DNA from: Alphaproteobacteria bacterium
Lineage (GTDB): Bacteria > Pseudomonadota > Alphaproteobacteria > Thalassobaculales > Thalassobaculaceae
DNA: 64,000 nucleotides
Direction: 5' to 3'
Assembly (NCBI GenBank): GCA_024742605.1
Contig: JANSYC010000008.1
Coordinates: forward strand, 1 to 64,000
The notes under the pieces are model-generated. The model ran no database searches and was not told the DNA's origin. It saw nothing but the letters and a program-made list of their open reading frames with translations. Positions 1,400-32,948 of the stretch are shown in pieces (the first letter of the stretch is position 1; every line of letters begins with the position of its first letter). Both the position numbers and the translations under genes were made by a program.

Positions 1400-3427
1400 C
1401 TATCGGCTCTCTGATAGTTTGAGGCTCAATTTGACCACCGTGCCATGGCCTATTTGAGAGTCGAACTCAAGTCGGCTGTTCATGCCTTCGGCAAGCTTTT
1501 GTGAGATTGCTAATCCGAGTCCGCTTCCCTCAAAACCCGAAACATAACTATCGCTTAGTTGCACAAAGGGCTGCCCAATAAGTTTTAGCTGCTCGGGTGT
1601 CATGCCGCGACCGCTATCGGATACCGACAGCAATGCGCTGCTGGATCCTGGCTCAGTCACGCATTCAACACGCACACTGCCGCCTGATCCAGTGAACTTA
1701 ATGGCGTTGGATATGAGGTTCGTAAGGACTTGTCGGAGAGCCCGAGCATCGGCCATGACGACAAGGTCGGCAGGCACCTTCAGGTCCTCGATATGGACGT
1801 TGCATTGGTTAGCCATAGGTCCGAACTGTCGAAGACAATCCGCTGCGATTAGCCGGACCACCACGGGTCGCAGTTCAAAATCGTACGCATTCGACTCGAT
1901 CTTTGCGTAATTCAGGATGTCATTGATGAGCTCAAGTAGCATCTTGCTGCTACTGAAGATGTCCGCGATGTATTCTTGGTATTTCGCATTTTTAACCGGG
2001 CCAAAAACCTCATTATGCATGAGATCAGAAAACCCGAGAACCGCATTTAAGGGGGTCCGAAGCTCGTGGCTCATGCTTGCAAGGAACATGGTTTTAGCGG
2101 TGTTGGCCTCTTCAGCTATACGCGCTTGCTTCCTGCTTTCGTCAGCCAGTTCTTTCAACCTCACTTGAACCGCAGTTTCTTCTGTCATGTCTCGAAGAAC
2201 TGCGCTCATCACTTCAAGGCCCTCAAAACGGCTTTTACCCAGAGAGGCGAGTACGGGAAATTTGGTTCCATCAGCGCGTTGGCCGTGGATCACTCTCCAG
2301 TCTCCCATCATTCGATTATCGACTGAGCTATTTTTGAACTCTTCGACATGATGCGCGTGTTGTTTGTGATGTTCACTGGGGATGAGTATATCCATCGGCT
2401 GCCCCAACATTTCCAGAGCTGTGCGTTGGAACATCTTCTCGGCAGCTGGATTGAAAACGATGATACTGCCGCCACTATCAATGGATACGATTGCGGTTGG
2501 CGCTAAGTGGAGGATCTCTGAAAGCATCGCATTGGCGCGCCGCGAACTGCTGAGTGAAAAGTAGATTAAAATAGAAAACATTGAAGCCAATAAGGATAAA
2601 ATTAATCCGAGAACCAGGTGGGAGCTTGTATGGCTTGATGGCAATTCTGTGGCGGCTTGGACTATGTGCAATTCGAATTTTTGATTCATGAATGGCAGTA
2701 GGAACCGCCTGTCTAATTTAATGTCGATCAATTGTTCTAAATCAGTACCGGCATGTATATTAATTCGATATTGGTCAGAGATAATACTTCCAAGCGTTCC
2801 GTTTACGTCAGACACACGAAATACTGTGCTGAGATACCCTATGAAGCGTTCATCGCGTACCAAGGGGTGGTAGGTAACGATGCCCTGTCCCCCCTGAAAC
2901 AAATCGACGATTGCGGTAGCACGAGGCTCATCGCTGTCGCGGGCAGCCCGCAAGAGATCGCGTATTGTTTCAGTTTGACCTACGGTACGTCCCAAGGCGT
3001 CTTTATTGGCCTCCATCGGCCATACATGAACAATCTGATTGTTCTCATCGATCAGGTTGATGCTAACAAAATCTTCAAACGATCCTTGGATCAGATTGGC
3101 TGCTAGGTCAAAGCCGATTTCCTCAGTAATAACGCCGTCCCGAAGCATTTTTTGTAACACATTCAGATCAGAGGCATGGGCTTCTAAGTTATCCTTTATG
3201 TCATTAAAGATCCGCTTCGCGTCCGCGTCGAACCGAAGCTGATCGGCCACTTCAGCGGACTGGCGGGTTGCGGACGAGACGTAGAGCGTGATGGCCAAAC
3301 CGACGAGTAGAACCGCAGTTCCTATTGCGAACCCCATAAGACGGTTGCGCTTTGATGGAGGAACCTGTCGGCCAGCTTTCTTTGGTGTCGGTTTTGCTCC
3401 ATCAGCATGCTTAGAAATTTGTGCCAC
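1400..3427 (-). CDS. Membrane sensor histidine kinase (PAS, HisKA, HATPase)
   Basis: This 675-residue sensor kinase phosphorylates a response regulator that is not identifiable here. After a Lys/Pro-rich N-terminus, a membrane segment lies near residues 31-50 and a second near 270-292, enclosing a periplasmic sensor region of about 220 residues whose ligand is unknown. A PAS domain follows (about 300-420, with a VLRDMTEE-type C-terminal motif), then a HisKA H-box (MSHELRTPLNAV, His ~454). The HATPase has an N-box (NLISNAIKF), DSGRGM and GSGLGLAIS. No receiver domain is fused and no regulator gene adjoins. The gene is bracketed by two 92-bp direct repeats, suggesting it came or could leave as a unit. 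Confidence 0.88.
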   Translation of the reverse strand: MAQISKHADGAKPTPKKAGRQVPPSKRNRLMGFAIGTAVLLVGLAITLYVSSATRQSAEVADQLRFDADAKRIFNDIKDNLEAHASDLNVLQKMLRDGVITEEIGFDLAANLIQGSFEDFVSINLIDENNQIVHVWPMEANKDALGRTVGQTETIRDLLRAARDSDEPRATAIVDLFQGGQGIVTYHPLVRDERFIGYLSTVFRVSDVNGTLGSIISDQYRINIHAGTDLEQLIDIKLDRRFLLPFMNQKFELHIVQAATELPSSHTSSHLVLGLILSLLASMFSILIYFSLSSSRRANAMLSEILHLAPTAIVSIDSGGSIIVFNPAAEKMFQRTALEMLGQPMDILIPSEHHKQHAHHVEEFKNSSVDNRMMGDWRVIHGQRADGTKFPVLASLGKSRFEGLEVMSAVLRDMTEETAVQVRLKELADESRKQARIAEEANTAKTMFLASMSHELRTPLNAVLGFSDLMHNEVFGPVKNAKYQEYIADIFSSSKMLLELINDILNYAKIESNAYDFELRPVVVRLIAADCLRQFGPMANQCNVHIEDLKVPADLVVMADARALRQVLTNLISNAIKFTGSGGSVRVECVTEPGSSSALLSVSDSGRGMTPEQLKLIGQPFVQLSDSYVSGFEGSGLGLAISQKLAEGMNSRLEFDSQIGHGTVVKLSLKLSESR

Positions 3428-8570: not shown

Positions 8571-8995
8571 TATTTCTTTAGCATGACGATCCAGGCCAAG
8601 AGATGCGTCACCGCACCCGTCTCGTCGGCAAGGGGGAGCAGAATCTCATCGAGCTTCTCAAATTCATCTAGGGGGCCGACATATTCGATGGGGGCTCGGA
8701 CTGGCTCGCCTGTTTTGATGGCTTGCCGAATATTTCTCATCATGGGGCCATCCTCCTCGACGTGAGGAAGTGACGTCATCGTGCGCCCTGTGTGGTCTTC
8801 GAAGAACACCAATAGTGCATTCTCGCCGATAACCCGGAACCGTATGTCCTGGCCGCCATCAACAACATCGAAAAACAAATGGTCCGGAAGAAGCTCGGAA
8901 ATATCATTTGGTTCAAAATCTGACCTGAGGGGAGTCTTCCGCCCCTTTCGCAATCCCTCCCAATAGGAGAGGGCGTCTTTGATAATGTGGTGCAT
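8570..8995 (-). CDS. PAS_5-family protein
   Basis: A 141-residue protein fitting the PAS_5 family common in Rhodospirillales: WEGLRKGRKTPLRSDFEP at the N-terminus, LFFDVVDGGQDIRFRVIGENA in the middle, then the DHTGRTM element and a C-terminal LDEILLPLADETG. Members are small single-domain proteins with unknown ligand. No output domain is present. The gene is divergent from the interrupted BLUF gene (start 9290), with an integrase remnant in between, and ends against another integrase remnant. Two more PAS_5 genes occur in this window (21469 and 32040). Confidence 0.8.
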   Translation of the reverse strand: MHHIIKDALSYWEGLRKGRKTPLRSDFEPNDISELLPDHLFFDVVDGGQDIRFRVIGENALLVFFEDHTGRTMTSLPHVEEDGPMMRNIRQAIKTGEPVRAPIEYVGPLDEFEKLDEILLPLADETGAVTHLLAWIVMLKK

Positions 8996-21468: not shown

Positions 21469-22068
21469 TCAGGCCTTGCGGGACGGCATGTGGATCGTCG
21501 CCACCACCGCCTGGTCGACCGCACCGCCGGCGGCGGAGCGCACCGGCAGCACCAGTTTCTCGTAGTCATAGGCCAGATGGTCGACGACCGACTGGATCCG
21601 CATCGCCACCGGCGCGCTCCGCGCGAAGGCGGCGTCGAACTGTGCGCGGACCATGGCCCGAAGCGGCGGATGGAAGACCTCGAGGGTCTGTCCGGTGAAG
21701 TCCTGGCCGAATATGGCCACGATCTCGGTGCCGACCAGCCGGTAGCGGCAGGTCCAGTCGGCGCCGTCGGTCTCCGGCGAGGGCGCGACTGGTTCCCGGT
21801 CGGCGATCATGGTCCGGCCCAGGATGGACCTGACGTCCTGGGGATGGAATTGGGCGCGGCTGGGGGGCGTGCTGCCCTCCGCTTCGGCGGCCCGGCGCCA
21901 GGCCTCGAACAGGTCCCGCAGCGGCGCCGCATTTAGCGCCTCCGGAAGCCGTGCGACCGGAATGTCGGTCACCGCGCGCGCCTGCTGGATCCGGTTCCCA
22001 GCCCAGGGACGGCCCCAGAGCGTGTTGCGGGGGATCAGGTTCGCGAGGTTCGGGGTCGATTGTGCCAT
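21469..22068 (-). CDS. PAS_5-family protein
   Basis: A 199-residue PAS_5 protein. After a ~45-residue N-terminal extension it shows LRDLFEAWRRAAEAEGSTPP, the QFHPQDVRSILGRTMI segment, RYRLVGTEIVAIFGQDFTGQTLE, and a C-terminal YEKLVLPVRSAAG. The start at MAQSTPN (22068) is chosen because the open frame further upstream is arginine-rich, unconserved and antisense to the next operon's leader. No output domain. It is the first protein-coding gene right of the tRNA. Ligand and role unknown. Confidence 0.8.
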   Translation of the reverse strand: MAQSTPNLANLIPRNTLWGRPWAGNRIQQARAVTDIPVARLPEALNAAPLRDLFEAWRRAAEAEGSTPPSRAQFHPQDVRSILGRTMIADREPVAPSPETDGADWTCRYRLVGTEIVAIFGQDFTGQTLEVFHPPLRAMVRAQFDAAFARSAPVAMRIQSVVDHLAYDYEKLVLPVRSAAGGAVDQAVVATIHMPSRKA

Positions 22069-24310: not shown

Positions 24311-26047
24311 ATGGACGGGGTGCAGAACGCCACTCAGATCTCCCTATGGATCGCTGTCCTGGCGGTGCTGCTGGTGGGGATCTTGGCCTTTTGGCTGAAC
24401 CGCCGGCTGACCGCTCGGGCCCGGGCGGATGCGGACTTGGCACGGCGGTCCGAGCAGCGCTTCCGGCTGCTGGTCGACGGGGTCCGGAACACCGCCATCC
24501 ACATGGTCGACATGGACGGCGTCGTCACGTCGTGGAATGTCGGTGCCCAGCGGATCTACGGCTATGCCGCGGACGAGATTGTGGGCGGCGACATGTCGAC
24601 CTTTCACACCGATGAGGACATCCGGCAGGGTCTTCCCAGACAGATCCTGGCGACGGCGATGGCCACCGGCCGGTACGAGGGGGAGGGGCCGCGGCTGCGC
24701 AAGGATGGGAGCCGATTCTGGGCCGCGTTCTCGCTCTACACGGTCGAGGATCCGGAGGGCGAAATCGCAGGTTTCGCAAAGATCACCCGTGATGTCTCCG
24801 AACGAAAGGCCGCCCAGGATGAGCTTCAGGCTGCCAAGGTGGAGCTCGAACTTCGGGTGCTGGAGCGCACGCGCGAGCTGGTGCTGGCGAAGGAGTCAGC
24901 CGAGCAGGCCAATGCCGCCAAATCCCAGTTCCTCGCCAATATGAGCCATGAACTCCGCACCCCGCTGAATGCGATCATGGGCTATAGCGAGATGCTGCTG
25001 GAAGACATGAAGGAGACAGCGGCGGCGCCGGATCTGGAGCGGATCACCCGCGCAGGCAGCCATCTGCTGAGACTGATCAACGAGGCCCTGGATCTCTCGA
25101 AGATCGACGCCGGACAGATGGAGCTGTTCGTCGAGACCTTCGATCTGACGGATCTCATTCGCGACGTGACCGACGCCATGGGTCCGATCGCGCGCCGCAA
25201 CGGCAACTCGGTCGACTGCCGATTGGCTGACGGGCTCAGCGCGCTCCGTTCGGACGCGCAGAAGGTTCGGCAATGTCTCGTGAACCTGCTGTCGAATGCC
25301 TGCAAGTTCACCGAGAATGGCACTGTTGTCCTGTCGGTTGAGGAGCGGGAGGTCGACGGCATGGCGTCGGTGGTTTTCGAAGTCGCCGATACCGGGATCG
25401 GAATGACGGAGGACCAGCTGGAGCATGTTTTCGACGCCTTCGCCCAGGCGGACGGCTCGATCACCCGAAGATTTGGGGGGACTGGGCTGGGGCTCACTCT
25501 CACACGGCGGATGGCGGAACTGATGGGCGGCAGCGTGTCCGCGGCCAGTACGTTGGGGGCGGGGTCGACGTTCACCCTGACCCTGCCAAAGACCCCGCCG
25601 GATGTGGACATCATCGAAGCGGTGGCACCGACGGGCAGTTCAGAGGTTGGCGCCCCGGCCGAACCGATGGTTCTCGTGATCGACGACGACCCGTTGGTGC
25701 TGGATCTCATGGAACGGCTGCTCGGCCGGAACGGCTTTCGCCCCTATCTGGTCGACAACGGTCCCGATGGGATCGCTGCGGCCGTATGGCTCAAGCCGTC
25801 GGTGATCCTGTTGGATGTTCAGATGCCGGGCCTGGACGGCTGGCAGACCCTGAGTCAGCTAAAGGCGCGGGCCGAGACCACCGACATTCCGGTCATCATG
25901 TCGACAATGGTCGATGATCTGAAACGCGGGTTTACCCTCGGGGCGGCGCATTACCTTGTGAAGCCGATCGACAACGTGACCCTGATCGAAACCCTGCGGC
26001 GTCATACAGCCGGGCACCCGGTCGCGTCGGAGACGGAGCTGGGATGA
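24311..26047 (+). CDS. Hybrid PAS histidine kinase with receiver domain
   Basis: A 578-residue hybrid kinase. One N-terminal membrane helix (residues ~9-30) is followed by a PAS domain (FRLLVDGVRNTAIHMVDMDG to KITRDVSERKAAQ), a coiled coil, HisKA (MSHELRTPLNAIMGY, His ~213), HATPase (NLLSNACKFTENG, DTGIGM, GGTGLGLTLT), and a C-terminal receiver from ~453 (LVIDDDPLV, Asp ~502 in VILLDVQMPGLDG, Lys in YLVKPID). It lies 30 bp after the hydratase. A phosphorelay partner (Hpt) is not encoded nearby. Signal unknown; the PAS has no obvious cofactor signature. Confidence 0.92.
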   Translation: MDGVQNATQISLWIAVLAVLLVGILAFWLNRRLTARARADADLARRSEQRFRLLVDGVRNTAIHMVDMDGVVTSWNVGAQRIYGYAADEIVGGDMSTFHTDEDIRQGLPRQILATAMATGRYEGEGPRLRKDGSRFWAAFSLYTVEDPEGEIAGFAKITRDVSERKAAQDELQAAKVELELRVLERTRELVLAKESAEQANAAKSQFLANMSHELRTPLNAIMGYSEMLLEDMKETAAAPDLERITRAGSHLLRLINEALDLSKIDAGQMELFVETFDLTDLIRDVTDAMGPIARRNGNSVDCRLADGLSALRSDAQKVRQCLVNLLSNACKFTENGTVVLSVEEREVDGMASVVFEVADTGIGMTEDQLEHVFDAFAQADGSITRRFGGTGLGLTLTRRMAELMGGSVSAASTLGAGSTFTLTLPKTPPDVDIIEAVAPTGSSEVGAPAEPMVLVIDDDPLVLDLMERLLGRNGFRPYLVDNGPDGIAAAVWLKPSVILLDVQMPGLDGWQTLSQLKARAETTDIPVIMSTMVDDLKRGFTLGAAHYLVKPIDNVTLIETLRRHTAGHPVASETELG

Positions 26048-32039: not shown

Positions 32040-32559
32040 ATGCAGGTCACGGAAGAAGAGACGAAAGGCGCGTTTAACGACCGGCGGATCCGGTCGGATG
32101 TGATGCGAGGCTTCTATGCGGCCTGGGACGCCTCGAGCGCAGGCCGACCAGCACCTGCACGGTCCGACTTCCTTCCGGAGACCTTGGTGACCTGGTGGCC
32201 GGACATGTTCCTGGTGGACGTCGCCATCGAAGCCGGACGGCCGGTATTCGCCCACCGACTTTTCGGCAGTTGCCTGGAAAACCGGCTGGGCCGGAAATTG
32301 GGCGGCCATGCCCTCGACAGCCAGACCGACATGGAAGTGGGCGATCCTCGGCTGGGGGGGGGTGGGCGCGAACGGGCCTACCAGACCCGTTCCGGGACAA
32401 TAGCGCCGGCGCATCATTACCTGCGCCTCAAGAATGACGGGGAAGCGCCCAGCGGAATTCGAACGCCTGCTGCTGCCCCTCTCGAACGACGGACGGACGG
32501 TCGTCCGACTGCTGGGCGCGGCGCAATACCGGAACCTGCTGACCAACAGGGCCTCCTGA
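32040..32559 (+). pseudogene. PAS_5-family gene with frameshift
   Basis: The frame from ATG 32040 encodes a PAS_5 N-terminus (RGFYAAWDASSAGRPAP, LVTWWPDMFLVDVAIEAGRP, LGRKLGGHALDS). Its expected C-terminus (AEFERLLLPLSNDGRTVVRL to TNRAS and TGA at 32557) is in the +1 frame from about 32440. One indel between about 32403 and 32450 would join them; a nine-G run at ~32355 is nearby. It could be a true mutation or a sequencing error. The repaired stop overlaps the next ATG (TGATG), typical of translational coupling, so the gene was co-expressed with the PYP homologue. Confidence 0.78.
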
Positions 32560-32948
32560 TGTCTGATCGCATACCCGAAGAAATAGACTTAGAAGCCGAC
32601 GATCTGGCGGAAATTCTGGACCGACTCGGTGAAGCGGAACGGAATCGCCTGCCGTTCGGCTTGGTCCTGATGAGCCATTCCGGCGACGTGCTGTACTACA
32701 GCGACCGTGAGCGCGAGATGTCAGGCTACCCGCGTGATCCGGTCGGTCTGAATTGGTTGCGGGATGTCGCTCCGTGCATGAACGAGGAGTGGATCGTGGA
32801 AGGTTTGGCCCGGTGCCGAGATTGCTGGCGACTCGATTTCATGGTGAGGACGACAGGGGACCATCGGGATCGCAGACAGGAGTTGGATCTTCGGCTTCTG
32901 AGCGCGGTCAACGGGCAACGCATGTGGCTGCTCATCCGGCGGATCTAA
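32559..32948 (+). CDS. pyp: Photoactive yellow protein homologue
   Basis: A 129-residue PAS-fold protein. It aligns end to end with Halorhodospira PYP (125 residues): DDLAEILDRLGEAERNRLPFG matches the N-terminal cap; YSDREREMSG matches YNAAEGDITG; RDVAPCM matches KDVAPCT; the end RMWLLIRRI matches YWVFVKRV. Chromophore residues are conserved: Tyr47 and Glu51 (PYP Tyr42, Glu46) and the p-coumarate-binding Cys73 (Cys69); PYP Thr50 is Ser and Arg52 is Tyr. It should bind 4-hydroxycinnamate and photocycle in blue light. No tyrosine ammonia-lyase is in the window. The start is set by the TGATG overlap; the longer frame through the PAS_5 gene exists only because of the frameshift. Confidence 0.85.
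   Translation: MSDRIPEEIDLEADDLAEILDRLGEAERNRLPFGLVLMSHSGDVLYYSDREREMSGYPRDPVGLNWLRDVAPCMNEEWIVEGLARCRDCWRLDFMVRTTGDHRDRRQELDLRLLSAVNGQRMWLLIRRI

Follow-up and report, generated by a model that had tools for sequence, protein, structure and literature searches.

A divergent photoactive yellow protein relative coupled to a PAS_5 gene suggests a signaling partner for one clade of the PYP family

Results

A PYP-like gene overlaps a frameshifted PAS_5 gene

The window, a stretch of 64,000 nucleotides from alphaproteobacterial contig JANSYC010000008.1, encodes on its forward strand a 129-residue relative (32559-32948; MSDRIPEEID...WLLIRRI) of photoactive yellow protein (PYP), a blue-light sensor. 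The stop codon of a PAS_5 gene (TGA, 32557-32559) overlaps its start codon (ATG, 32559-32561) by one base, so that both the ORF and the TGATG coupling described in the initial annotation are confirmed. A mechanical ORF call fuses the two genes into one frame of 302 residues (32040-32948), which the same annotation had attributed to a frameshift. The corresponding locus of a same-genus genome (G001; contig CALAHL010000118.1, an uncultured Rhodospirillaceae MAG) bears this out: an intact PAS_5 ORF of 227 residues is followed there by the PYP-like gene with an ATGATG overlap, and aligning the two loci at the DNA level reveals a single additional base in the window between 32430 and 32455, near CGCCCAGCGGAATTCG, where the PAS_5 reading frame shifts from frame 0 to frame 1. 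The forward-strand PAS_5 gene of the window is read in two parts, one in the frame of 32040 (32040-32454), with a Pfam PAS_5 match over residues 22-95, and one past the frameshift (32455-32559; EFERLLLPLSNDG...TNRAS). The match in the window fragment scores 24.6 bits, above the PF07310 gathering score of 22 bits, as do the same-genus gene (43.6 bits) and that of genome G470 (45.9 bits).

Between the window and the same-genus locus, dN/dS is about 0.12-0.14 for the PYP-like gene, which is under purifying selection, and is higher, about 0.27-0.34, for the first part of the PAS_5 gene. Past the frameshift the PAS_5 end is conserved in its own frame (dN/dS 0.08-0.19); the extra base therefore arose very recently or reflects an assembly error. 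Ten consecutive G within the PAS_5 gene (32347-32356), next to a site where its length differs by 6 bases from that of the same-genus gene, are prone to sequencing error, yet the frame is kept there. Two further PAS_5 domains lie on the reverse strand of the window (8597-8989 and 21526-21927), and PF07310 matches number 28 in the window genome versus 1 to 14 in five other genomes searched.

The encoded protein belongs to the PYP family

The profile search that the initial annotation had proposed returned TIGR02373 (photo_yellow) as the sole NCBIfam match of the PYP-like protein (E 1.8e-15, 57.1 bits), and coverage of profile positions 2-124 of 124 upholds the claim of full-length alignment. 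The protein is not filed as a TIGR02373 equivalog because its score lies under the curated cut-off of 143.05 bits; the model catches only about 20% of PYP homologs (PMC9664959). All PDB sequences matching it at E < 0.01 are PYP or engineered PYP variants (best 6.7e-11). It shows the full-domain sequence homology used to define the family (PMC9664959) and, when aligned with Halorhodospira PYP, carries Tyr47, Glu51 and Cys73 in place of Tyr42, Glu46 and Cys69, the same three equivalents that had been picked out at the outset; Cys73 is preceded by V70-A71-P72. Against the same-genus orthologue (78%), the block 36-75, which includes these three residues, has 2 changes in 40 positions and the remainder 27 in 89 (p 0.001, for a block picked by eye after the alignment had been inspected).

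An AlphaFold2 model built from five sequences (pLDDT 86) was compared with known structures. Z reached 19.8 against PYP crystal structures, aligned over residues 3-129, as compared with 16.3 against the PYP domain of Rhodospirillum centenum Ppr and 11.6 against the closest PAS domain outside the PYP family; Foldseek agrees with the PYP fold assignment. The PYP fold with its N-terminal cap is present in the predicted structure, and the better match to other PAS proteins for which the initial annotation had allowed was not seen in this comparison.

The window protein resembles Halorhodospira halophila PYP in length, modeled fold and end-to-end alignment, and shares Tyr42, Glu46 and Cys69, Ala67-Pro68 before the Cys, and Trp119 (PYP numbering). 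The two are only 22% identical, however. The window protein differs at R52 (Tyr), T50 (Ser), T70 (Met), F96 (Gly) and M100 (Asp), of which R52, F96 and M100 are photocycle-tuning residues, and is also changed at F92 and Y98. Unlike the H. halophila protein, it is encoded in a genome in which neither pCL nor TAL was found and is coupled to PAS_5.

Twelve proteins form one branch of the PYP tree

Ten members were added to the window and same-genus proteins by searching about 1,390 genomes, a total in which some are counted repeatedly, and by one scan of genome contigs. These come from five species of a single genus, which shares its family with Niveispirillum and Indioceanicola; from G470, of that same family; from three genomes in the order of a Pseudolabrys MAG; and from that MAG itself (L029, G416). 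The PYP phylogeny has been divided into clades A, B and C and a PYP_like branch (PMC9664959), which likewise contain single-domain PYPs beside signaling genes, some with upstream histidine kinases (PMC12826048). In our tree, whose comparison set comprised canonical, kinase-fused and clade-C-type PYPs, the twelve proteins form one branch (support 99/97) separate from all of these. The window gene is a very divergent PYP relative, and the clade to which it belongs is itself deep and divergent within the family. The rarity of PYP, invoked in the initial annotation, holds only in relative terms, as 984 homologs were catalogued in a 2025 survey (PMC12826048).

E46, C69 and W119 are kept in all twelve members, and S50, G96, D97 and D100 are likewise carried by 12/12. 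Position 42 is Tyr in nine members and Phe in three, and L029 has lost Ala67-Pro68. Compared with plasmid sequences, the window protein gave no match, and the member from genome G1177 matched four records at 31-33% identity.

The PYP-like genes are paired with one PAS_5 subfamily

A PAS_5 domain precedes the PYP-like gene in 11 of the 12 members, either running into its start or stopping no more than 10 bases short of it; the twelfth, L029, has no adjoining PAS_5. The domain stands alone in two genera (the window genus and G470), and eight genomes have it as the C-terminal part of a histidine kinase-receiver protein, with the architecture PAS-HisKA-HATPase-receiver-PAS_5 wherever the whole kinase protein was read. 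Pfam PF07310 did not find the kinase tails scanned, those of G380, G926 and G992; a BLASTP comparison does, however, match the tail of G380 to the G001 PAS_5 at 9e-17, and the PAS_5 proteins of G470 and G001 are 42% identical.

A phylogeny of 41 PAS_5 domains, taken mainly from these same genomes, groups the eleven PYP-linked ones in a single clade (support 96/95); the window sequence was translated through the frameshift, with X marking the junction. When tested at ten linked loci, a profile of linked PAS_5 sequences matched upstream of PYP at every one (E no worse than 4e-28), and it gave three weak matches only at 34 other PYP loci; since five of the linked sequences went into the profile, this is a check of specificity and no independent discovery. 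Two observations led us to reject chance adjacency: the pairing is seen repeatedly in genomes that have no more than 1 to 11 PF07310 matches, and the linked domains form one clade.

Shared by several genera, some of them distant alphaproteobacteria, the pairing suggests a signaling partner for PYP, which supports the idea, already raised in the initial annotation, that PAS_5 proteins could act in light signaling. This link is apparently new. Neither PMC9664959 nor PMC12826048, whose supplementary lists may include sequences of this clade, mentions PAS_5 by name in its main text; the latter records 8-9 operons in which a kinase domain lies upstream of pyp.

No kinase adjoins the PAS_5/PYP pair in the window. 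Elsewhere in the window are a CHASE-PAS histidine kinase (1400-3427, reverse strand) and a PAS hybrid histidine kinase-receiver protein (24311-26047, forward strand) with the architecture of the PYP-linked kinases minus PAS_5. The latter was rejected as the missing partner, as its identity to the PYP-linked kinases (about 25%) is far below their mutual identity. In G926 (L094/L103) and G992 (L095/L105), the receiver of the PYP-linked kinase matches Pfam weakly and seems to be without the phospho-acceptor Asp (VVWSLDP), and may for this reason be a scaffold.

Chromophore supply varies across the clade

A genome search for tyrosine ammonia-lyase and a p-coumarate ligase, suggested in the initial annotation, found neither in the window genome. 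In this genome, which is 100% complete, neither a TIGR02372 match at E 1e-15 nor a full-length match to 4-coumarate-CoA ligase was obtained, and its sole PF00221 aromatic lyase is HutH by curated score and adjoins urocanase. The 4-coumarate-CoA ligase and tyrosine ammonia-lyase of an H. halophila-type pyp operon are thus both missing from it. The ligase is present in G1177, where kinase-PAS_5 and PYP genes are followed by a TIGR02372-type ligase gene. Its score of 238 bits, like the 295 bits of the ligase that adjoins the canonical PYP in G014, lies under the curated cut-off of 334.7. In G1177 at least, the adjoining ligase gene links the clade with p-coumaric acid. In the five-species genus, a TIGR02372-type ligase is encoded elsewhere in the genome, the G380 copy lying near a kinase-fused PYP. 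At E 1e-15 the TIGR02372 ligase is absent from six of the twelve genomes (the window genome G000, G001, G470, G416, G926 and G992).

Most pyp operons lack ligase and lyase genes, for which broad enzymes or uptake may substitute (PMC12826048); their absence therefore counts against a working photoreceptor without excluding one. As there is no ligase and only a histidine ammonia-lyase, light sensing by the PYP-like protein in the window organism is unproven, and we consider it an even bet.

Met100 and Phe96 are replaced throughout the clade. Since Met100 has been proposed as the catalyst of chromophore re-isomerization (PMC9664959), its replacement predicts slow recovery. Ser at position 50 accompanies a blue-shifted maximum near 433 nm in two characterized PYPs (PMC12826048), and by analogy a blue-shifted maximum is predicted for the clade.

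Discussion

Our preferred reading, to which we assign a probability of roughly 0.55, is that the clade consists of divergent PYPs signaling through one PAS_5 subfamily, with the kinase mostly in cis and, in the window genus, in trans. Homology, modeled fold, pocket residues, conserved gene coupling and the single clade of linked PAS_5 domains form its observed and computed basis. A p-coumaroyl thioester on the Cys69 equivalent would be the chromophore, and blue light would drive the change in PYP, which would be relayed, presumably by physical contact and in the direction of the kinase, to the PAS_5 domain; PAS_5 would then alter kinase output. In most members this last step would take place in cis, within the hybrid histidine kinase encoded just upstream with PAS_5 at its C-terminus (eight genomes). 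Since PAS_5 is free-standing in the window genus, it would there act on a putative kinase partner in trans.

A precedent for the latter is MopJ of Caulobacter, which as a free PAS_5 protein is connected in trans with DivJ and DivL (PMC4432633). Like the PAS_5 protein of the window genus, MopJ is a free-standing PAS_5 (PF07310) protein without an output domain; it differs in being a regulator of the cell cycle and motility, with no adjoining PYP reported in PMC4432633. Ppr of R. centenum, a PYP-phytochrome-histidine kinase, similarly ties a PYP domain to a histidine kinase, but its PYP is fused to the kinase N-terminus, whereas in this clade PYP is a separate protein and PAS_5 sits at the kinase C-terminus. 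The replacements of Met100 by Asp and Phe96 by Gly may give a slow photocycle. We hold more tentatively, at somewhat less than even odds, a fuller version in which an unrecognized PYP clade and its co-inherited PAS_5 receiver make up a two-PAS light switch, working through a hybrid kinase in cis or a free messenger in trans, with the photocycle retuned by G96, D97 and D100.

A serious though doubtful alternative is that the window genus, and perhaps other ligase-less members, kept the PYP fold but no longer sense light, while the PAS_5 pairing stayed; the conserved pocket would then sense something else, such as redox state, a thioester or another small molecule. Sensing other than light has been proposed for some methylobacterial PYP domains (PMC9664959). 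The six ligase-less genomes, the restriction of the window genome to HutH, the Phe at position 42 in three genomes that lack the ligase and the loss of Ala67-Pro68 in L029 all favor this account. Against it, the window genus keeps Tyr42, Glu46 and Cys69, the last two being invariant across the clade, and published pyp operons are themselves mostly without these enzymes.

It is improbable that the module is decaying, with PAS_5 a pseudogene in the window species and the PYP gene being lost. The one-base frameshift in the window assembly and the dN/dS of the first part of PAS_5 would fit such decay, but the PYP-like gene (about 0.13) and the PAS_5 end past the frameshift are both constrained. 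Least credible by far is an ordinary PAS domain with a chance resemblance to the PYP pocket: the weak Pfam PAS match (E 0.1) and the PAS and PAS_4 matches in some relatives point that way, whereas the only NCBIfam match and every significant PDB match are to PYP over the full length. These PYP-restricted PDB matches, together with the gap in fold score between PYP and the best other PAS domain, led us to reject a generic PAS domain.

The signaling chain behind PYP has been named an important gap (PMC12826048). The PAS_5 subfamily is a genetically fixed candidate partner, coupled to a single PYP clade in several families of Alphaproteobacteria and joined to a kinase in most of the members, and the two small proteins offer a concrete pair to study together. 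The PAS_5 family, with its 28 matches in the window genome, would in turn gain a possible input.

Other PYP-like domains were also encountered. Those of L090 (G616) and L092 (G739) lie in frames of ~900 residues, have Ser at the Cys69 position (VSPSTN and VVRSTN) and are therefore probably without chromophore. In L015 (G054), a PYP-like domain forms the C-terminus of a chemoreceptor-like protein; its Cys is kept, but Ile replaces Pro68 (FKDVAICAD) and the residue at the Glu46 position seems to differ (NRYQS). A similar match was found in L021 (G185), from the same genus as G054.
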